Assembly (NCBI GenBank): GCA_905235955.1
Contig: CAJONN010000013.1
Span: forward strand, 1 to 21,079
DNA: 21,079 bases
Reading direction: 5' to 3'
Source: an uncultured Marinilabiliaceae bacterium
GTDB lineage: Bacteria; Bacteroidota; Bacteroidia; Bacteroidales; Marinilabiliaceae
Shown here piece by piece: positions 290 through 20,731 of this stretch; position 1 is the first letter of the stretch, and each line of letters opens with the position of its first letter. The notes beneath the pieces were generated by a model. The model searched no databases, was not told the origin of the DNA, and saw only the letters and a list, made by a program, of their open reading frames with translations. The position numbers and the translations under genes are program-made.

Positions 290-2539
290 ATGAAACACGA
301 AGTCAGAAAGGTTGTCATTCTTGGTTCGGGCGCTCTCAAAATAGGTGAGGCAGGCGAGTTTGACTATTCTGGTTCACAAGCCCTTAAGGCTCTAAAAGAA
401 GAAGGAGTACGCACCGTACTTATCAACCCAAACATTGCTACAATTCAGACATCGGAAAACATTGCCGACAAGATTTACTTCTTGCCCGTAACTCCGTATT
501 TTGTTGAGCAGGTTATCAAAAAAGAACGCCCTGATGGCATTCTTCTATCATTTGGTGGCCAAACAGCACTCAATTGTGGCATAAAGCTCTTTGAGCAAAA
601 GATTTTGGAAAAATACAACGTCATGGTGCTCGGTACGCCCATTCAGGCCATCATCGACACTGAAGACCGCGAAATCTTTGCCAACAAGCTCAAAGAAATT
701 GATGTCAAAACACCTAAGAGCATTGCCGTAGAGAGTGTTGCCGATGCCCTCAAAGCATCAGACGAAATAGGCTTCCCTATCATTGTGCGCGCAGCATACA
801 CACTGGGTGGCATGGGCTCTGGCTTCTGCAACAACAAAGAAGAACTCATTGCTCGCGCTGAAAATGCGCTCTCATATTCAAACCAAATATTGGTAGAAGA
901 GTCGCTCAAAGGCTGGAAAGAGGTAGAATATGAAGTAGTGCGCGATGCTTACAACAACTGCATCACCGTCTGCAACATGGAAAACTTCGATCCGCTGGGC
1001 ATTCACACTGGCGAATCTATAGTTGTAGCACCTTCGCAAACACTCTCCAACTCTGAGTATCACAAATTGCGCGAGTTGGCCATCAAAATTGTACGCCACG
1101 TAGGCATTGTGGGCGAATGTAACGTACAATATGCCCTCGACCCCAACTCTGAAGATTACCGCGTCATCGAAGTCAACGCTCGCTTGTCGCGTTCATCAGC
1201 CTTGGCATCAAAAGCTACTGGCTATCCGTTGGCATTTGTAGCTGCAAAACTTTCGCTCGGCTACGGATTGTGGGAACTCAAAAACTCAGTTACCAAAACA
1301 ACTCCGGCATATTTTGAGCCAGCTCTGGACTATATTGTTTGCAAAATACCACGTTGGGACCTTGGCAAGTTTACAGGCGTTTCAAAGCAAATAGGTTCTT
1401 CGATGAAGTCAGTAGGCGAAATAATGGCCATCGGACGTTCGTTTGAAGAGGTTATTCAGAAAGGTCTTCGTATGGTCGGACAAGGCACCCACGGCTTTGT
1501 TGGCAACCAACCACTCAAAGGTCTTGACATAGAAGAAGAACTCAAAAACCCAACCGACAAACGCGTTTATGCTATTGCGGAAGGCTTTGACAAGGGCTTG
1601 AGTGTAAAAGATATTCACGAACTGACAAAGATTGATAATTGGTTCCTCGAGAAACTTTATCACATCTTCACCATCAAAAATCGTCTGTCAGAATACAACA
1701 AAATAGCTGACGTACCCAACGACCTATTGCTCGAAGCCAAAAAAGCTGGCTTCTCTGACTTCCAAATAGCTCGCCTCGTATTCAAAGACAAGAGCCGCAA
1801 AATGGAAGAGCAAAACCTTGAAGTACGCGAACACCGCAAAAAACAAAACATTGTGCCAGTTGTAAAGCAAATTGACACAATGGCAGGCGAATTCCCAGCA
1901 CAAATCAACTATTTGTATATCACCTACAACGGTGCAACCAACGATGTGCAGTATGTAGGCGACCACCGTTCAGTAATAGTGCTTGGCTCAGGCGCATATC
2001 GCATAGGCTCATCGGTTGAATTCGACTGGTGCTCAGTCAACGCTATCAACACCATCAAGCAGCAAGGTTTGCGCTCGGTAATGATAAACTACAACCCCGA
2101 AACCGTATCAACCGACTACGATGTGTGCGACCGCCTCTACTTTGATGAACTCACTGAAGAACGTGTGCTCGACATCATCGACCTTGAGCAACCTAAAGGC
2201 GTAATAGTGTCAGTGGGCGGACAAATTCCGAACAACTTGGCAATGAAGCTACATCGCCGAAATGTACCAATCTTGGGCACATCGCCTATCAACATTGACC
2301 GCGCCGAAAACCGCCAAAAGTTCTCAACTATGTGCGACGAACTTGGTGTCGACCAGCCACGTTGGAGCGAGCTTACTACCATTGACGACATTTACAAGTT
2401 TGTTGACGAAGTAGGCTTCCCAGTGCTTGTGCGCCCGTCATACGTACTCTCAGGTGCTGCTATGAATGTGGTATCAAACAAGCAAGAGCTTGAATACTTC
2501 CTCAACCTTGCAGCCAACGTGTCGAAAGAGTTCCCGTAG
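290..2539 (+). CDS. carB: Carbamoyl-phosphate synthase large subunit, N-terminal part (frameshifted)
   Basis: CarB makes carbamoyl phosphate from bicarbonate, ammonia delivered by the small subunit, and two ATP, for pyrimidine and arginine synthesis. This ORF carries the whole N-terminal synthetase half (start [22 protein letters not shown]-grasp core with [19 protein letters not shown] around residue 300), the middle oligomerisation region, and the start of the second ATP-grasp half ([20 protein letters not shown] around residue 562). It ends at TAG 2537-2539 after 749 residues, in the middle of the second ATP-grasp domain. The next frame continues the protein without loss of homology, and the two parts together give about 1073 residues, the normal family length. 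One base is missing between TTC 2531-2533 and GTA 2536-2538. The sequence is closer to the eukaryotic CAD type than to E. coli CarB. No carA is adjacent within the window. Confidence 0.93.
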
Positions 2540-3513
2540 TGGTTTCAGAATTCATAGAGCAAGCCAAAGAGATAGAGATAGACGCTGTGGCACAAGGTGG
2601 CGAGGTGATTGCATACGCCATATCAGAACACATAGAGTTTGCAGGCGTTCACTCTGGCGATGCTACAATAGTGTTCCCACCACAAAAACTCTACGTAGAG
2701 ACTATCAAACGCATAAAGAAGATAGCACGCCAAATAGCAAAAGCACTTGAAATTTCGGGTCCGTTCAACATGCAGGTTTTGGCAAAAAACAACGATATAA
2801 AAGTTATAGAGTGCAACTTGCGTGCATCGCGTAGCTTCCCATTCGTATCTAAAGTACTCAAAGTCAACCTCATCGAACTTGCTACACGCGTAATGCTTGG
2901 CTTGCCAGTAGAGAAGCCTGCAAAGAGCCTCTTCGACATCGACTATGTTGGCATCAAAGCACCTCAGTTCTCGTTTGCTCGTCTTCAGAAGGCCGACCCA
3001 GTGTTGGGTGTCGACATGTCGTCAACAGGCGAAGTGGGTTGCTTGGGCGAAAACTTCGACGATGCAGTGCTACAGTCGATGCTATCAGTAGGTTATCGCA
3101 TACCCCAAGCTGGTGGCAACATACTCATCTCGTCAGGTCCGGCACGTTCAAAAACCGAACTTCTCGATGGTGCACGTATGCTTGCGCAGAAAGGCTACAA
3201 ACTCTTTGCAACAGGTGGCACACATCGCTTCTTGTCAGAAAATGGTGTAGACTCTACGCTCTTGCATTGGCCCGATGAAGATGTGAAGCCCAATGTGATA
3301 GATTACATTCGTGAGAAAAAGATAGATTTGGTTGTCAACATACCTAAAAACCTCACTCACAATGAGCTCAAAAATGGCTACCGCATTCGTCGCGATGCCA
3401 TCGACTTCAATGTACCACTCATCACCAATGCACGTTTGGCATCAGCATTCATCAGAGCATTCTGCAAGCTGAGCATCGACCAAATAAGCATCAAGGCTTG
3501 GGATGAATTTTAA
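2539..3513 (+). CDS. carB: Carbamoyl-phosphate synthase large subunit, C-terminal part (continuation after frameshift)
   Basis: This is the remainder of the carB gene in the -1 frame relative to 290-2539. The GTG at 2539 is an internal valine codon of the intact protein, not a natural start. The homologous reading actually begins at GTA 2536. It contains the rest of the second ATP-grasp domain (IKVIECNLRASRSFPFVSKV, matching the metal-binding E/N region) and the C-terminal MGS-like allosteric domain from about residue 185 of this fragment (LISSGPARSKTELL ... LFATGGTHRFLSENG), which in other CarB proteins binds UMP, ornithine or IMP. No internal stop disrupts it and codon use matches the upstream part, so any inactivation is recent or the missing base is a sequencing error. 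A strong terminator follows 32 nt after the stop. Confidence 0.9.
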   Translation: MVSEFIEQAKEIEIDAVAQGGEVIAYAISEHIEFAGVHSGDATIVFPPQKLYVETIKRIKKIARQIAKALEISGPFNMQVLAKNNDIKVIECNLRASRSFPFVSKVLKVNLIELATRVMLGLPVEKPAKSLFDIDYVGIKAPQFSFARLQKADPVLGVDMSSTGEVGCLGENFDDAVLQSMLSVGYRIPQAGGNILISSGPARSKTELLDGARMLAQKGYKLFATGGTHRFLSENGVDSTLLHWPDEDVKPNVIDYIREKKIDLVVNIPKNLTHNELKNGYRIRRDAIDFNVPLITNARLASAFIRAFCKLSIDQISIKAWDEF

Positions 3514-6791: not shown

Positions 6792-6822
6792 TTGTACAAA
6801 TAAAAATAGATTTATACATTTG
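6792..6822 (+). promoter_or_regulatory. Putative trp operon promoter
   Basis: TTG at 6792-6794, a 20-nt spacer and TACATTTG at 6815-6822 match the Bacteroidota promoter form. The predicted start near 6829 would put the leader ORF ATG about 14 nt into the transcript. It is divergent from the antiporter promoter with roughly 70 nt between the two -33 regions. Confidence 0.62.
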
Positions 6823-6842: not shown

Positions 6843-6908
6843 ATGAAGTCGAGAAACAACATATGGTGGTGGCATCTTACTCTTGTAAAAACCGGAGTGA
6901 GAGCTTAA
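6843..6908 (+). CDS. trpL: trp operon leader peptide (21 residues, three tandem Trp)
   Basis: ATG 6843 to TAA 6906-6908 encodes 21 residues, with TGG TGG TGG at codons 8-10 (MKSRNNIWWWHLTL is the first part). Three adjacent tryptophan codons in a tiny ORF between a good promoter and trpD are the hallmark of a transcription attenuator. A ribosome short of Trp-tRNA would stall at 6864-6872 and leave 6891-6898 free to pair with 6952-6959, which blocks the terminator. With ample Trp the ribosome moves to the stop codon and covers 6891-6898, so the terminator at 6941-6969 forms. The pairing logic is read from the sequence; its operation in the cell is inferred. Confidence 0.85.
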   Translation: MKSRNNIWWWHLTLVKTGVRA

Positions 6909-6969
6909 GCCGTTAGTTCTTGAAGAAACAAGATATTGAAAGGCCTGCCGAACTCCGGTGGGCTTTTTT
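6891..6969 (+). promoter_or_regulatory. trp attenuator: antiterminator and terminator hairpins
   Basis: Two structures exclude each other. Terminator: AGGCCTGCCG (6941-6950) pairs with CGGTGGGCTT (6956-6965) around the loop AACTC, ten pairs including three G-U, and six T residues run from 6964 to 6969. Antiterminator: ACCGGAGT (6891-6898, inside the leader ORF) is perfectly complementary to ACTCCGGT (6952-6959), which takes the loop and part of the 3' arm of the terminator. A small TCTTG/CAAGA hairpin (6918-6922 with 6929-6933) sits between them and would bring the antiterminator arms together. trpD starts 33 nt after the T-run. Confidence 0.75.
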
Positions 6970-7002: not shown

Positions 7003-8004
7003 ATGCAAAACACACTTACACGCCTTGTAGCTCATGAAGAGCTTACGGCTGCTGAAACAGAAGAGATACTTATCAACATCACTAACGAAAAATATCCGCA
7101 AGAGCAGATAACAGCCTTCTTGATGGGCTTGCAGATGCGTGGCATATCAGTTGACGAACTCATTGGCTTGCGCAATGGAATACTGAAGACTGGTGTACCT
7201 GTTGACCTCAGCCCCTATAAACCTATCGACATTGTTGGCACTGGTGGCGACGGCAAAAACACCTTCAACATATCTACATGTGCCTGCTTCGTAGTGGCTG
7301 GTGCTGGCTATAAAGTGGCAAAACATGGCAACTATGCTGCTACATCAGTGAGCGGAGCAAGCAATGTGATTGAGGGACATGGTGTGAAGTTTACCAACGA
7401 CAACGACAAGCTACGCAAAAGCCTCGAAGAGAGCAACTTTGTATATTTGCACGCACCACTTTTTGCACGTGCTATGAAGTTTGTTGCTCCCATACGCAAA
7501 GCTCTCAAAATACCTACTTGCTTCAATTTGCTCGGTCCGCTCGTAAACCCTTGCAAGCCAACTTATCAGATGCTTGGTGTTGCCAATCTCAACCAAATGC
7601 GCCTCTACAACAATGTATATCAGAAAATTGGCATCGGCTACGGCATTGTAAACAGCGTAGATGGCTACGACGAGATTTCGCTCACAGCCGACTTCAAGGT
7701 AACTACGAAGCAACAAGAGCGCATATACAGCCCAGCCGACTTAGGTCTGTCAACTGTTAGTCCTGATGAAATTTCGGGCGGCGCAAATCAGACCAAAGAA
7801 GATGCTCTCAGAGTATTCGATGCTATACTTGAAGGTAGTGATGTTGAGAGCCGCACAAATGTAGTGCTTGCTAATGCTGCTTTTGCTATCAACATCATCG
7901 AACCAGAAAAAACTCTTGAGGAGTGCCTTGCCATTGCACGCGAGTCGCTCGAATCAAAGAAAGCGTTGTTGGTGCTAAAGAAATATGTAGAGCTCAACTC
8001 ATAG
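7003..8004 (+). CDS. trpD: Anthranilate phosphoribosyltransferase
   Basis: TrpD joins anthranilate and PRPP to give phosphoribosylanthranilate, the second committed step of tryptophan synthesis. The PRPP-binding loop GTGGDGKNTFN is at residues 79-89, with KHGNYAATSVSGASNVIEGHG and the family block NLLGPLVNP following. I set the start at ATG 7003 (333 residues): the longer open frame back to 6958 runs into the terminator hairpin and would add a non-conserved tail. No glutamine amidotransferase domain is fused to it. It is the first structural gene after the attenuator, which is unusual because trpE and trpG normally precede trpD in Bacteroidales operons. The next gene begins about 60 nt downstream and has its own promoter-like sequence. 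Confidence 0.95.
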   Translation: MQNTLTRLVAHEELTAAETEEILINITNEKYPQEQITAFLMGLQMRGISVDELIGLRNGILKTGVPVDLSPYKPIDIVGTGGDGKNTFNISTCACFVVAGAGYKVAKHGNYAATSVSGASNVIEGHGVKFTNDNDKLRKSLEESNFVYLHAPLFARAMKFVAPIRKALKIPTCFNLLGPLVNPCKPTYQMLGVANLNQMRLYNNVYQKIGIGYGIVNSVDGYDEISLTADFKVTTKQQERIYSPADLGLSTVSPDEISGGANQTKEDALRVFDAILEGSDVESRTNVVLANAAFAINIIEPEKTLEECLAIARESLESKKALLVLKKYVELNS

Positions 8005-8063: not shown

Positions 8064-9311
8064 ATGATATACAACAAAATAACCGTCTACAAAGCAGCTA
8101 TCATATCTGCTACAATGTTTGCCTTCAGTGCATGCAATTCGTCAGACAACACATCTGATGAGCCAACATCTGTAACATATAGTTGGACTGAAACTTCTGC
8201 GCAACAAGCTGAATTCACAGTTTTGAGAGCCGACACCATTCCGTCGGCATTGCTACTAAACCTACTGATGGGGCAAGATGTGCAAGTGCCGGGTAGCGTA
8301 GTGGTGCGCAACATTTCCTACAACGCTACTGCAGGCGAAAAAGCACATCAATTATCAGGCGTAGTAGCATTGCCTGCAGGCATTGACGAAGTGCACACCA
8401 TCATCATCGGCAACCATTGGACAATAGGTTCTGACGCTGAATGTCCGTCGAAGTCGCTCCCCATTGATGTAGGCTTATCGGTCACACGTGGTGCGATGGT
8501 AGTGTGTGCCGACTATTTGGGCTACGGACTGACGGCTGACGAAGTGCACCCATATTTGTGCGCCATAGAAACAGCTCGAAATAGCGTTGACTGCTTCAAG
8601 GCTGCGATTGCTCTGTGCCAATCGTTGGGCATAAAGTTGGCCGACGATTATCGCACATACAACATTGGATATTCGCAAGGTGGCGCGGTAGCTTTGGCTG
8701 TGCAACGATATATAGAGAGCAATGCCAGCGTAGATAGCTTAGTCAGATTGGAAAAGACACTTTGCGGTGCCGGACCTTACGACCCTATTGCTTGCTACAA
8801 AGAGTATCTGAATTCTGACACATTGGCATATCCGGTAGTTGTGCCAATGATAATAGCAGGTATGAAGGCAACCTACCCAGAGATATTGCAAGATGTAGCT
8901 GAAGCTGATTTCTTCTCAGAAAAATTCAACGCCGCTGGCATACTCGACTCAGTAAAGTCAAAAAAATATAACACTCTGCAGCTCAATAACCTGATAACCA
9001 GAAGCGTAGACGGAGCAACACCACAAAATATATTTTCAGCAGCAAGCCTTGACACCACATCGGCAATAGCTCAGAAACTTTCAGCCGCACTTGAGATAAA
9101 CAACCTTACCAAAGGTTGGCAGCCACAACACAGAGTGCAATTTTTCCACTCAACAGTTGATGTTGTTGTTCCAATAATAAACACCCAAAACGCCCTCAAA
9201 GCCTTTGGCGAAAGCACTACCGACAAAGCCATAATAGACAATATGGGCACTCACAACGACGCTGCTTTGCTCTTCTACAAATTAGTTTTGCAAAACAACA
9301 TATTTGAATAA
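8064..9311 (+). CDS. Exported lipoprotein alpha/beta-hydrolase (lipase/esterase-like)
   Basis: This 415-residue protein has a lipoprotein signal peptide with lipobox FSAC and acylated Cys24, so it should be anchored in the envelope. The chain then looks like a serine alpha/beta-hydrolase: nucleophile elbow GYSQG with Ser204, a likely acid Asp366 in FHSTVDVVVP, and a likely base His397 in MGTHND. The IIIGNHWTIG and ADYLGYG segments fit the oxyanion strand and the region before the elbow. The substrate is unknown. I start at ATG 8064; the frame is open back to 8040 but that part overlaps the promoter. Its TAA (9309-9311) touches the trpC ATG with no gap, so it is co-transcribed with trpCFBA even though it has no evident role in tryptophan synthesis. 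Confidence 0.82.
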   Translation: MIYNKITVYKAAIISATMFAFSACNSSDNTSDEPTSVTYSWTETSAQQAEFTVLRADTIPSALLLNLLMGQDVQVPGSVVVRNISYNATAGEKAHQLSGVVALPAGIDEVHTIIIGNHWTIGSDAECPSKSLPIDVGLSVTRGAMVVCADYLGYGLTADEVHPYLCAIETARNSVDCFKAAIALCQSLGIKLADDYRTYNIGYSQGGAVALAVQRYIESNASVDSLVRLEKTLCGAGPYDPIACYKEYLNSDTLAYPVVVPMIIAGMKATYPEILQDVAEADFFSEKFNAAGILDSVKSKKYNTLQLNNLITRSVDGATPQNIFSAASLDTTSAIAQKLSAALEINNLTKGWQPQHRVQFFHSTVDVVVPIINTQNALKAFGESTTDKAIIDNMGTHNDAALLFYKLVLQNNIFE

Positions 9312-10103
9312 ATGAACAACTATCTCGACAAAATAATAGCTACAAAGCCTGAATGCATAGCCGTAGCCAAACGCAAATGTTCGCTACCCGATGTAATAGC
9401 TATGTGTGCCGATGCCAAACCTGCCCTACCCTTTGCGCAAAGCATAAAAGAGCGCAACGGCATAATAGCCGAATTCAAGCGTCAGTCGCCCTCTAAAGGA
9501 CTGATACACGGCAACATAACTCCGCCCGATGTAGTACCATACTACGAAGAAGCAGGCGTCAGTGCCGTATCGGTGCTGACCGACCAAGAGTTTTTTGGCG
9601 GAACAATAGCCGATGTGCGCCAAGCATCAGAAACACTTGGCATACCAGTGCTACGCAAAGAGTTTATCATTGACCCATATCAAGTTTACGAAGCACGCGC
9701 CAACGGAGCATCGGCCATACTGCTAATAGCTGCAGTGCTTAGTAGGCAACAAGCACAAGACTTAGCCGGATTGGCAGCCGAGATAGGCTTAGAAGTGCTG
9801 ATGGAACTACACGGCGAAGATGAAACCAACTACACTGTAGAGGGTGTAACAGTAGCCGGCATCAACAACCGCAACCTACGCACCTTTGAAGTAGACTTGC
9901 ATCACTCAATAGACGTAGCACACCTCTTGCCTACCAATCTGCCAAAAATATCAGAGAGTGGCATACGCACCATCGACGACATGCTAATGCTAAGACAAGG
10001 CGGCTTCGACGGATTTTTGATAGGAGAAAACTTTATGAAAGCCGAGCACCCTGGCAAGGCGTGCATCAGCTTCTGCCAACAATACAAACAAGCTCTAAAC
10101 TAA
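9312..10103 (+). CDS. trpC: Indole-3-glycerol phosphate synthase
   Basis: TrpC closes the ring of carboxyphenylaminodeoxyribulose phosphate with loss of CO2 to give indole-3-glycerol phosphate. The TIM-barrel hallmarks are present: EFKRQSPSKG (residues 54-63, containing the catalytic lysine), LRKEFIIDPYQ, ELHGEDE, GINNRNL and the phosphate-binding SESGI near the C-terminus. At 263 residues it is a monofunctional enzyme with no fused TrpF. The ATG directly abuts the stop of the lipoprotein hydrolase (TAAATG), and trpF follows after 6 nt, so translation is probably coupled across the three genes. Confidence 0.96.
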   Translation: MNNYLDKIIATKPECIAVAKRKCSLPDVIAMCADAKPALPFAQSIKERNGIIAEFKRQSPSKGLIHGNITPPDVVPYYEEAGVSAVSVLTDQEFFGGTIADVRQASETLGIPVLRKEFIIDPYQVYEARANGASAILLIAAVLSRQQAQDLAGLAAEIGLEVLMELHGEDETNYTVEGVTVAGINNRNLRTFEVDLHHSIDVAHLLPTNLPKISESGIRTIDDMLMLRQGGFDGFLIGENFMKAEHPGKACISFCQQYKQALN

Positions 10104-10109
10104 CTATTT

Positions 10110-10742
10110 ATGCAAACGCCACAAATAAAAATATGCGGCATGACCGATATTGACAACATTAGCCGCATCTTGTTTTTAGAGCCCGACTATTTAGGCTTCA
10201 TCTTCTATCCGAAATCGCCACGCTACGTCAGAGGCAAAATAAAGCCCGACATGCTAAGCATCATACCTGACGATGTAAAACGTGTAGGCGTATTTGTAAA
10301 CAGCACCGAAGCTGAAATGCGCCAAACAGCCAGCACATACGGTCTGAGCGTCATTCAGCTACATGGCGACGAAAAACCCACCGTCTGCAAACGACTGCGT
10401 GAAGAGGGCTACGAAGTAATAAAAGCATTCAACATAGCTACCGAACAAGATTTTGAGCAAGTTTGGGCATACAACGACTTTGTTGATTACTTTCTATTTG
10501 ACAGTAAAACATCAAACTATGGCGGAAGCGGACAAGGCTTTGACTGGCAACTCATACTACGCCAACCCATACGCAAACCTTGGATACTATCTGGCGGCAT
10601 AGGACCAAACAACATAGAAGCAGCCTCGCAAACCGGAGCTGCCATAATTGACCTCAACAGCCGCTTTGAAATATCGCCCGGCATAAAAAACTACGACACA
10701 TTGCACGAAGCAATAAGCAAAATAAAAAACAAAAAAGGATAA
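10110..10742 (+). CDS. trpF: Phosphoribosylanthranilate isomerase
   Basis: TrpF converts phosphoribosylanthranilate to carboxyphenylaminodeoxyribulose phosphate by an Amadori rearrangement. The general base Cys9 is in KICGM (residues 7-11) and the general acid Asp131 in [19 protein letters not shown]. The usual C-terminal phosphate-binding sequence appears as GGIGPNNI and [15 protein letters not shown], where DLNSRFE replaces the more common DVSSGVE form. Length 210 is normal. It lies 6 nt after trpC and 19 nt before trpB. Confidence 0.95.
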
Positions 10743-10761: not shown

Positions 10762-11955
10762 ATGGGAAAATATAGCGTCAACAACGAAGGACTATACGGC
10801 CGTTTTGGCGGAGCATACGTACCTGAAATGCTCTACCCAAATGTAGAAAACTTGCGCAACGTATATCTCAGCATCATCAACTCTGACGAATTCCAAAAAG
10901 AGTTTAAACAACTTATGCGCGACTATGTTGGCAGGCCTACGCCACTCTTCTTTGCCAAAAAACTGAGCAAAATATTCGGAGCCAACATATATCTGAAACG
11001 CGAAGACTTAGCACATACTGGTGCACACAAAATAAACAACGCCATAGGTCAAGCACTCATTGCCATAAAAATGGGCAAGACACGCATAATAGCCGAAACA
11101 GGTGCCGGTCAACATGGCGTAGCTACAGCCACCGCTTGTGCATTGCTCGGACTCAAATGTCGCATATATATGGGCGAAGTTGACATAGAACGCCAAGCCC
11201 CCAATGTAGCACGCATGCGCATGCTGGGTGCAGAAGTGGTGCCAGCACTAAGTGGCAACCGCACCCTCAAAGATGCCACCAACGAAGCTCTACGCGACTG
11301 GATTTCAAACCCTGACGACACCTTCTACATAATAGGCTCGGCCGTTGGTCCGCACCCCTACCCTGACATGGTAGCTCGCTTGCAATCAATCATAAGCGAA
11401 GAGATGAAGCAGCAGTTTACCGAACACACCGGCAAACCACTTCCTGACTACGTTGTAGCATGTATTGGTGGTGGCTCAAACGCAGCAGGTTCGTTCTATC
11501 ACTTCGTTGACGAAGAGAGCGTAAAACTAATAGCTGTAGAAGCAGCAGGCTTAGGACTCGACAGTGGCGAAACAGCTGCATCGATGGCTCGTGGCACAGA
11601 AGGCATCATACACGGCTCGCGCACTATGCTTATGCAAACTGACGACGGACAAATAACCGAACCATACTCCATCTCTGCTGGTCTCGACTACCCGGGCGTT
11701 GGTCCGTGGCACTCATATTTGCATGAGATAGGACGCGAAACAGTGCTTGCCGCCACTGACGATGAAGCACTCGAAGCAGCCCGACTACTCACCATAGAAG
11801 AGGGCATCATACCAGCACTCGAAAGTGCTCATGCCTTGGCTGCACTGCCCAAAATAAAGGCACAACTGAAGCCAACCGACAATGTCATCGTAACCATATC
11901 AGGGCGAGGCGACAAAGATATGGCTACATACATCAAAAGATTAAGCACCAAATAA
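10762..11955 (+). CDS. trpB: Tryptophan synthase beta chain
   Basis: TrpB condenses indole with serine in a pyridoxal-phosphate reaction, working as an alpha2-beta2 complex with TrpA. The PLP-binding lysine is Lys90 in [10 protein letters not shown], and the phosphate-binding loop is GGGSNA near residue 236. [10 protein letters not shown] at the N-terminus and the long [12 protein letters not shown] and [11 protein letters not shown] blocks identify the standard TrpB1 form that works with TrpA, not the TrpB2 type. Length 397 is normal. It sits between trpF (19 nt) and trpA (21 nt). Confidence 0.97.
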
Positions 11956-11976: not shown

Positions 11977-12753
11977 ATGAAAAACAGATTAGACACCTTG
12001 TTTGAGCAAAAACGCAATCTGCTCTCGATATACTTCACAGCTGGTTTTCCGCAGCTCACTGACACAATGCCCATAATACGCGCCTTGCAAAATGCTGGCG
12101 TAGACTTTGTTGAAATTGGCATGCCCTTCAGCGACCCTTTGGCCGACGGACCAGTAATACAACTTGCAGCTATTGAAGCACTTAAAAATGGCATGACAAC
12201 CAAAGTATTGTTAGAACAGATAAAAAATATGCGTTCTGAAATAACAATGCCAGTGCTCCTCATGGGCTACATCAACCCCGTAATGCACTATGGCATAGAG
12301 AAGTTTGCAGCCGACGCTGAAGCCGCAGGAGTTGACGGACTGATACTACCTGACCTTCCATGGGACGAATATGTGGCAAAATACAAAACCCTATTCGACA
12401 AGCACAACCTGCACTTCATTCCGCTCATTGCGCCCCAAACGCCCGACGAACGCATACGCCATATCGATGCACAAGCTGAAGGATTTATCTACACAGTGGC
12501 ATCGGCAGGCATCACGGGCAACATCAAAACTACAGTTGACTATCGCACACTCTATTTTGAACGCATCAGAAACCTCAAGTTGCGCAACAAAAATGTGATA
12601 GGTTTTGGAATAAAAGACAATGCATCATACACCCACGCATGCTCACATGCTGATGGTGCAATAATAGGTACAGCTTTTGTCAATCATCTGAAGCAAAATG
12701 GTGCATCAGAAAATGCAATAAAGCAATTTGTAGAGCAGATAAAAAAGGCGTAA
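11977..12753 (+). CDS. trpA: Tryptophan synthase alpha chain
   Basis: TrpA cleaves indole-3-glycerol phosphate to indole and glyceraldehyde-3-phosphate and passes indole through the tunnel to TrpB. The catalytic pair is Glu46 (FVEIGMPFSDP) and Asp57 (LADGP), followed by LLMGYINPV, the LPDLPWDE loop and GIKDNASYTHACSHADGAIIGTA. Length 258 is normal. The segment around residues 170-180 (YTVASAGITGN) has the active-site loop in the usual place. It is the last gene of the tryptophan cluster, with a strong terminator 30 nt downstream. Confidence 0.96.
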   Translation: MKNRLDTLFEQKRNLLSIYFTAGFPQLTDTMPIIRALQNAGVDFVEIGMPFSDPLADGPVIQLAAIEALKNGMTTKVLLEQIKNMRSEITMPVLLMGYINPVMHYGIEKFAADAEAAGVDGLILPDLPWDEYVAKYKTLFDKHNLHFIPLIAPQTPDERIRHIDAQAEGFIYTVASAGITGNIKTTVDYRTLYFERIRNLKLRNKNVIGFGIKDNASYTHACSHADGAIIGTAFVNHLKQNGASENAIKQFVEQIKKA

Positions 12754-20109: not shown

Positions 20110-20186
20110 CGCGAGAAAATCAATAAACCCTTTCTTGTCAAATTCTCAAAAATTATTTGTATCCTTGCTTATTGATTATAAAATTG

Positions 20187-20435
20187 ATGATTATGGCAAA
20201 TGCAGCAACAGTGCCGGCAACCGGTCAGATTCTTGTAGAGATTGAAGATATGTCGATGTTGAAAGATATCAAGCGTGCTCTCCGTCTGATGCGTGGTGTG
20301 GGCAAAATCACCGTTCCGCGCGGCAAACGCATCTCATCCTACGAACGCTCGTTGCGCGACCTCGACGAAGGGCGTGTGTATGATGTGTATGAAGCAAAGG
20401 ATGTTGATGATTTGTTTAAGCAGATTTTAGGCTAA
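20187..20435 (+). CDS. Putative antitoxin paired with YafQ-type toxin
   Basis: A protein of 80-82 residues with an acidic C-terminal half (DLDEGRVYDVYEAKDVDDLFKQ) and a basic middle (KRALRLMRGVGKITVPRGKR). I do not recognise it as a DinJ/RelB ribbon-helix-helix protein by motif. The call as antitoxin is mainly positional: its TAA overlaps the toxin ATG by one base (TAATG at 20433-20437), the usual order and coupling of type II modules. Start is ATG 20187 or, six bases later, ATG 20193 (MANAATVPATG); the second looks equally natural. An acidic C-terminus that wraps the toxin would fit the general type II pattern. Confidence 0.75.
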   Translation: MIMANAATVPATGQILVEIEDMSMLKDIKRALRLMRGVGKITVPRGKRISSYERSLRDLDEGRVYDVYEAKDVDDLFKQILG

Positions 20436-20731
20436 TGGCAAGGTACACAATACGATACACGGGCGAGTTTAAGCGTGAGATGCGACAATGCGAAAAACGA
20501 GGCTATAACATGGATTTGCTGCGTGAGGCTATCCGTATTCTCTCTACCGAAGGAAAACTACCAGAAAAATATCGCGCACACATCCTAAGTGGCGACCGCA
20601 AAGGTCAATGGGAATGCCACATACAGCCCGATTGGTTGCTCATTTGGGAAATTCACGACCAAGAGCTTATCCTCGTTATGCTCAATACCGGCACACATTC
20701 CGACTTGTTTAGCAAAAAGTATAGGAAATGA
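20435..20731 (+). CDS. yafQ: YafQ-family (RelE superfamily) mRNA interferase toxin
   Basis: YafQ toxins bind the ribosome and cut mRNA in the A site. This 98-residue protein has the family's diagnostic positions: His49 in AHILSG, GQWECHIQPDWLLIW with His62 and Asp66, and TGTHSDLF with His88 and Phe92. In E. coli YafQ the corresponding residues are required for cleavage, so the toxin looks intact. It starts within the antitoxin stop codon, so translation is coupled. No frameshift or truncation is visible. Confidence 0.92.
   Translation: MARYTIRYTGEFKREMRQCEKRGYNMDLLREAIRILSTEGKLPEKYRAHILSGDRKGQWECHIQPDWLLIWEIHDQELILVMLNTGTHSDLFSKKYRK

Follow-up and report, generated by a model that had tools for sequence, protein, structure and literature searches.

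The DNA upstream of trpD in an uncultured Marinilabiliaceae bacterium raises the question of whether a short reading frame rich in Trp codons is the leader of a ribosome-mediated transcription attenuator and, if so, through which strand of the terminator it would prevent termination. Textbook attenuators block the terminator by sequestering its 5' arm ahead of synthesis of the 3' arm. A preliminary description of the window (the whole 21,079-nt stretch of DNA analyzed here) had listed the open reading frame (ORF), its three consecutive TGG codons, an 8-nt segment perfectly complementary to part of a downstream hairpin, the hairpin itself, and six T residues, and all of these were confirmed when we reread the letters at their positions (Table 1). 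The upstream promoter that it had called Bacteroidota type was also borne out. The element fits TAnnTTTG, which we take to be the Bacteroidota-type promoter consensus, and 56 of 73 homologous leaders, compared to 4.9% of shuffles, carry the motif in the 100 nt that precede the Trp codons; 54 of the motif-bearing leaders have TTG 17 to 23 nt upstream of the motif. Transcription is presumably driven from this promoter, and the frame is likely translated.

Table 1. Features of the trp leader and operon in the window and the second Trp leader of the same genome
Feature	Position	Strand	Basis or remark
Promoter: TTG 6792-6794, 20 nt, TACATTTG 6815-6822	6792..6822	+	Fits TAnnTTTG; sequence and homologous leaders
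Leader ORF, 21 codons, MKSRNNIWWWHLTLVKTGVRA	6843..6908	+	Sequence; Trp-cluster ORFs in homologous units
Three Trp codons (TGG x3, codons 8-10), proposed sensor	6864..6872	+	Sequence
Segment 1, 5' strand of 1:2 hairpin	6863..6883 (6863-6867, 6871-6883)	+	Minimum-energy fold
Segment 2	6891..6913	+	6891-6898 (ACCGGAGT) pairs with terminator loop and 3' arm
Terminator hairpin	6938..6968 (stem 6938-6950, loop 6951-6955 AACTC, stem 6956-6968)	+	-18.3 kcal/mol
Run of six T	6964..6969	+	Sequence
trpD, anthranilate phosphoribosyltransferase	7003..8004	+	NCBIfam TIGR01245, 286.8 bits, cutoff 199
Secretory-lipase-like gene, between trpD and trpC	8067..9311	+	Pfam PF03583 LIP, 29.8 bits, cutoff 23
trpC	9312..10103	+	NCBIfam NF001377, 269.6 bits, cutoff 260
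trpF	10110..10742	+	Best NCBIfam NF002298, E 3e-53, below cutoff 215
trpB	10762..11955	+	NCBIfam TIGR00263, 589.6 bits
trpA	11977..12753	+	NCBIfam TIGR00262, 201.4 bits
Second Trp leader of same genome, L110 / L145, MKIQNKNIWWWQLTRNNWSEQ	G000:C4:18239-18342	-	Before trpE-trpG

The best fold of the whole window leader (-46.3 kcal/mol, z -5.0, with 0/200 shuffles as good) contains a large 1:2 hairpin, 6863-6913, that was absent from the preliminary description. Segment 1 overlaps the Trp codons, and the 3' strand of the hairpin consists of 6894-6905 and 6909-6913 in the minimum-energy fold. Segment 2 has two partners in the window, namely, segment 1 and the terminator loop plus 3' arm, where its target at 6952-6959 (ACTCCGGT) is the exact complement of ACCGGAGT at 6891-6898. 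The terminator fold has a z of -4.2, with 1/200 shuffles as good, and places most of the T run within the stem; a simple terminator scan did not list the hairpin at 6938-6968, which appears in the fold. When the RNA before 6885 was removed, the long-range form of 6885-6969 had an energy of -28.5 kcal/mol versus -21.8 kcal/mol for the terminator form of 6909-6969.

Relatives of this leader were collected via the window TrpD from 80 loci of named records and 15 same-genus genomes. The nearest named TrpD relatives are Bacteroidales and Paludibacteraceae metagenome-assembled genomes (MAGs), and common orders among the relatives are leader-trpB-E-G-D-C-F-A and leader-trpE-G-D-C-F-B-A. An ORF with a Trp cluster precedes 76 of the 82 first trp units that have at least 200 nt of upstream sequence, a count that leaves aside 13 loci too short upstream and includes one ORF, in L088, that looks spurious; WWW is present in 52 of the 76. 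Across 1.32 Mb of loci, read on both strands, 51 short WWW ORFs lie within 300 nt upstream of trp genes and 4 lie elsewhere. For the structural analysis, a set of 76 leaders was reduced to 73, each having a terminator of at least -12 kcal/mol, by removing L054, where a terminator was not found, and the spurious ORFs of L088 and the L098 trpD unit; all 11 consensus stem pairs of the terminator are changed on both sides among the 43 leaders aligned. It could be argued that the frame is a chance short ORF, or that translating the leader benefits the downstream genes by some other route, given that no Trp-cluster ORF was found in 6 of the 82 units (L038, L081, L082, L083, L086, and L095). The recurrence of the ORF, its position, the terminator, and the compensatory changes argue against this, and we give a nonregulatory origin almost no credence.

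If the leader is an attenuator, the main question is what segment 2 pairs with. For each leader, we took positions +20 to +44 counted from the first Trp codon and scored their best helix with a target made up of the terminator loop and 6 nt of the 3' arm. Over the 73 leaders, the mean was -7.90 kcal/mol for a leader's own terminator compared to -4.41 kcal/mol for permuted ones (z -11.4, 0/2000), while the 5' arm plus loop gave -3.35 versus -2.42 kcal/mol (z -4.3, 0/2000). Pairing favored the 3' side in 60 leaders and neither side in 3; it favored the 5' side in 10, namely, L057, L102, L103, and seven leaders (L029, L030, L037, L039, L044, L045, and L067) whose targets are TCGCGAC or TCGCGACT; TCGCGA is self-complementary. 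The helix is built from 49 distinct sequences, such as ACCGGAGT/ACTCCGGT in the genus of the window, TCGTGAGT/ACTCACGA, and GTCGTAAGT/ACTTACGAC.

Both the terminator and the segment-2 pairing show compensatory changes. In alignment A1 (MAFFT, 43 of the 73 rows, hand-chosen for spread), 57 cells of the segment-2 helix are changed on both sides versus 23 in shuffles (0/500), and the covariation score is 0.382 versus 0.223 (0/500). Pair 36:117, for example, is U-A in 15 rows, G-C in 13, and C-G in 10, with five further cells. Two of the five covariation measures were weak, doubly changed pairs being matched by 24/500 shuffles and further pair types by 132/500. In total, 75.5% of the segment-2 cells are paired, compared to 31 to 51% when the partner was slid. 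The preliminary description had proposed aligning related leaders to look for conserved Trp codons and compensatory changes in both pairings; the alignment yielded the latter, and the codons are kept in the 76 units described above. A further possibility is that segment 2 contacts the loop of an intact terminator, as a kissing or pseudoknot interaction, and modulates termination without preventing the hairpin, which would agree with most leaders having the apical loop among the bases that segment 2 pairs with. However, pairing in A1 is better kept within the 3' arm (84.5% of cells) than in the loop (57.4%). The terminator stem requires those same 3'-arm bases, so the segment-2 helix and the terminator are mutually exclusive, and we consider such a contact very unlikely.

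The bias toward the 3' side recurred in a second set of leaders. We searched 79 genomes of the order with R1, a covariance model of A1 that holds the terminator pairs only. Of the loci fetched from other genomes, all 24 with at least 44.1 bits (L162-L185) lie before trp genes; among the weaker matches, about 42 bits and less (L186-L190), only L187 (1/5) combined a trp gene with a Trp ORF. Together with two same-genus loci (L156 and L159), the R1 loci gave 29 rows, one of which is a spurious ORF (the first L167 row). In this set, which is not fully independent since A1 supplied the model used to find it, the loop plus 3' arm again paired beyond permutation (-7.74 versus -5.15 kcal/mol, z -6.2, 0/2000), and the 5' arm plus loop was not specific (z -0.7, 512/2000). 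Of the 29 rows, 22 paired more strongly on the 3' side, 5 on the 5' side, and 2 were ties.

We considered whether this might nonetheless be a classical attenuator of the E. coli type, whose working antiterminator uses the 5' arm and in which complementarity to the loop and 3' arm is secondary. The signal for the 5' arm plus loop in the first set is in line with that reading. The pairing with the loop and 3' arm is, however, far stronger in both sets of Bacteroidales trp leaders, and in the window itself the segment-2 helix reaches -12.8 kcal/mol on the 3' side versus -2.1 kcal/mol for the best helix on the 5' side.

The spacing of segment 2 provides information on what would set it free. A helix of at least 6 bp is present in 59 leaders, and in 55 of these segment 2 begins 26 to 31 nt past the first Trp codon; the 59 offsets span 21 to 31 nt, with a standard deviation (sd) of 1.9 within a search window limited to +20 to +44. 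In the window leader, the offset is about 27 nt. The end of the stop codon lies 9 to 72 nt after the first Trp codon (sd 12.4, 73 leaders), and relative to that end the antiterminator strand starts at anything between 42 nt upstream and 19 nt downstream. Given that the spacing is nearly fixed from the Trp codons while the stop is variable, the ruler appears to start at the Trp codons, which is what a stalled ribosome would require. The preliminary description had placed the difference from E. coli in two features, an antiterminator strand within the leader ORF and capture of the 3' side of the terminator. Capture of the loop and 3' side stands; the location inside the ORF is incidental, and we rejected it as a requirement since the spacing follows the Trp codons and not the stop codon.

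We then considered how the leader could switch. Without a ribosome, the 1:2 pairing had a probability (P) of >0.5 in 73/73 leaders, and the terminator formed with a mean P of 0.99. A ribosome at the stop codon covering the segment, as originally suggested, is thus not the sole off-state, given that the 1:2 hairpin holds segment 2 with no ribosome present. The stalled state was modeled with the ribosome on the second Trp codon and an assumed footprint of 14 nt ahead. With the full terminator present, the terminator won at equilibrium (mean P of 0.96 over 73 leaders; 0.50 in the window, 0.62 in L056, and 0.02 in L053). This does not speak against attenuation because E. coli trpL behaves alike, with a terminator P of 0.97 when stalled. 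Equilibrium folding was rejected as a test of the switch since the terminator wins nearly everywhere, E. coli trpL included. The switch has to be kinetic, given that the completed terminator is favored at equilibrium in most leaders. In folds of the growing transcript, the antiterminator stayed ahead until typically 8 to 9 nt of the 3' arm was out, or 12 to 13 nt in the window, where capture was at least 0.97 until 11 nt was out. The order of events in these cotranscriptional folds is similar in E. coli trpL and the Bacteroidales leaders.

A first measure of capture, its maximum probability, was dropped because 73/73 leaders passed for both arms, and it was replaced by a shuffle control. In the stalled state with 6 nt of the 3' arm out, capture of the loop and 3' arm was 0.61 versus 0.16 with shuffled upstream RNA; it exceeded 0.5 in 58/73 leaders, was above all 25 shuffles in 27, and was below 0.4 in 12. 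In L016, the locus with the closest named TrpD, it was 0.0. The upper 5' arm was captured at 0.55 versus 0.21 in shuffles across the 73 leaders, which agrees with the classical reading and, with the z of -4.3 in the first set, suggests that the antiterminator may engage both arms. E. coli trpL captured its upper 5' arm (0.64 versus 0.21 in shuffles) and not its loop and 3' arm (0.00 versus 0.14).

Collectively, the comparative tests support the ribosome-stall reading offered initially, and we are confident that the window leader is a ribosome-mediated Trp transcription attenuator with a decoy-arm antiterminator. When charged tRNA-Trp is ample, the ribosome would clear the three Trp codons, segment 2 would lie under the ribosome or in the 1:2 hairpin, and the terminator would form, ending transcription at about 6969. 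When charged tRNA-Trp is scarce, the ribosome would wait at codons 8-10 and cover segment 1, leaving segment 2 free. The free segment would stand in for the upper 5' arm as a decoy, pairing with the loop as it leaves the polymerase and then with the 3' arm, and this capture would keep the terminator from nucleating at its loop until the polymerase clears the short T run. The timing prediction that follows is that capture must occur while the loop leaves the polymerase. Such capture, conserved and covarying, would demonstrate that an attenuator can also target the other terminator strand.

To place this pairing among other leaders, we examined trp leaders outside the order and leaders of other amino acid operons in the same genus. 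Outside the order, we fetched 19 trpE loci, one of which (L125) offers little upstream sequence, and found a Trp leader with a terminator in 15. Both sides of the terminator were above permutation in these 15 leaders (5' arm plus loop z -5.2, loop plus 3' arm z -3.8), and the stronger side was the 5' in 10, the 3' in 4, and tied in 1. Within the genus, His-run leaders occur at 9/15 hisG loci and Leu-run leaders at 4/14 leuA loci, and among the 12 whose terminator was usable, the 5' side gives the better pairing in 11, as judged with a wider search stretch than in the trp test and without permutation; the exception, L196, favors the 3' side by 0.1 kcal/mol. Pairing on the 3' side looks like a property of Bacteroidales trp leaders given that the his, leu, and outside-order leaders mostly favor the 5' side. 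The same comparisons lend the classical reading some plausibility for the Bacteroidales trp leaders, as does the stalled-state fold of the window, which pairs GCC 6909-6911 with GGC 6942-6944 inside the long-range helix. Weighed against the strength of the 3'-side pairing in both sets and in the window, the classical arrangement is, in our judgment, improbable.

Given that segment 2 pairs with the loop and 3' arm, unlike its counterparts in E. coli trpL and in all but one of the 12 his and leu leaders, it looks like a decoy 5' arm. E. coli trpL captures the upper 5' arm; the Bacteroidales segment 2 mimics the top of that arm and competes for the 3' arm. We favor, with some reservation, strand-swapped antitermination in the Bacteroidales trp leaders, in which the freed segment would seize the emerging loop and 3' arm and block hairpin nucleation; the E. 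coli pattern, with the 5' arm as partner, would be that of the same-genus his and leu leaders and of the majority of trp leaders sampled in the rest of the class. If this is true, the strand swap is a lineage-specific change within one class.

An attenuator of this kind is already known from Bacteroidota, and it is the pairing logic that is the variant part. The Bacteroid-trp RNA motif (Rfam RF01692) appears in Table 1 of Weinberg et al. 2010 (PMC2864571). Like the window leader, it lies upstream of trp operons in Bacteroidota and has a Trp-codon ORF with a long hairpin over the Trp codons. The RF01692 model ends inside the 5' arm of the terminator, so the loop, the 3' arm, and the segment-2 pairing are outside it. 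The window leader has the trp-upstream site and the short Trp-codon ORF and scores 22.1 bits (E = 3), below the gathering cutoff of 49, and an Rfam scan of the window returned no family at its cutoff, RF00513 (Trp_leader) and T-box included. Matches to RF01692 were found in Bacteroides fluxus L036 (92.6 bits), L028, L034, and L060, such that 4 of the 20 leader-bearing loci scanned reached the cutoff; no match to L110, the trpE leader of this genome, was listed at E up to 1. The claim that such leaders are normally missed thus applies to the window copy, but the kind itself had been recorded, without the terminator loop and 3' arm. It is very likely that the window leader is a diverged relative of Bacteroid-trp that occupies the same place and works like a member.

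Searches of open-license papers for the RF01692 accession or Bacteroides trp leaders returned only Weinberg et al. 2010 (PMC2864571), the name of the motif returned three papers, and no mechanism for the motif, nor any description of loop and 3'-arm capture in such a leader, was found in the papers searched. Our model would provide a structural basis for a motif catalogued in 2010, in an order that contains common gut bacteria, and would account for the many copies that Rfam misses. The available portions of two reports suggest attenuation in Bacteroidota: clues for leader-peptide attenuation were described in Flavobacterium psychrophilum (PMC9723704), and small ORFs (sORFs) resembling leader peptides were described in long 5' untranslated regions (UTRs) of Bacteroides thetaiotaomicron (PMC7366714); in those portions, trp is unnamed and the antiterminator is undescribed. 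E. coli trpL (RF00513) shares with the window leader a Trp-codon ORF, a 1:2 hairpin, a U-run terminator ahead of the first gene, and a competing antiterminator exclusive with the terminator. It differs in the 5'-arm antiterminator, given that the main partner in the window is the loop plus 3' arm, with nested 5'-arm pairs possible; among the scanned loci, RF00513 matched only the E. coli locus. The trp attenuators of Actinobacteria, as covered in the part of Seliverstov et al. 2005 (PMC1262725) that we consulted, are alike in having double or triple UGG codons, an antiterminator, and a GC-rich poly-U terminator. Their complementary triples are described as gGCC-rGCy-GGCC, which we interpret as the classical order, with the middle strand as the terminator 5' arm, unlike the window.

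Several individual leaders merit mention. The L094 leader, MFRNNIYWW (ORF ending at about 239), has a TGA stop in place of the third Trp codon. In L099-L101, L106-L109, and similar leaders, segment 2 contains a Shine-Dalgarno-like GGAGG(T) adjoining the stop codon, which gives the peptide end ...RR. Tandem pairs of Trp leader ORFs lie ahead of one trp gene in L170 (before trpE) and L183 (before trpB). One L055 contig carries near-identical leaders (at 2100 and 5897; 89% over about 157 columns) before trpB and trpE, and this identity shows that a leader was copied within the L055 genome. The L060 record, with its RF01692 match, is titled as a Clostridium sp. MAG and carries a Bacteroidales-type trp operon; the label is probably wrong.

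In the window, the gene order after the leader is trpD-[lipase-like]-trpC-F-B-A, and trpE-trpG are elsewhere in the genome (G000:C4); the lipase-like gene had no NCBIfam match. The second leader, before trpE-trpG and, like the Rfam family, absent from the preliminary description, pairs weakly, with a segment-2 helix of just 4 bp. The two leaders of this genome are 66% identical, which is within the 64 to 70% seen between genomes; they may have arisen by duplication or separately. The pattern ATG-N18-TGGTGG occurs at 27 places in the genome versus 15 for the reversed pattern, which is no clear excess. The same genome has a His leader, MTTLHHHHHHHTDD, with a terminator (L192, G000:C178) upstream of hisG at 454; 8 other genomes of the genus have comparable His leaders, and four have Leu-run leaders before leuA. 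Elsewhere in the window, carB (carbamoyl phosphate synthase large subunit) is split over two frames, 290-2539 and 2539-3513 (+), which may be genuine or an assembly error. An ORF at 20157-20435 (+), without a Pfam match, may encode an antitoxin; it lies upstream of a gene at 20435-20731 (+) that matches the YafQ toxin (PF15738).
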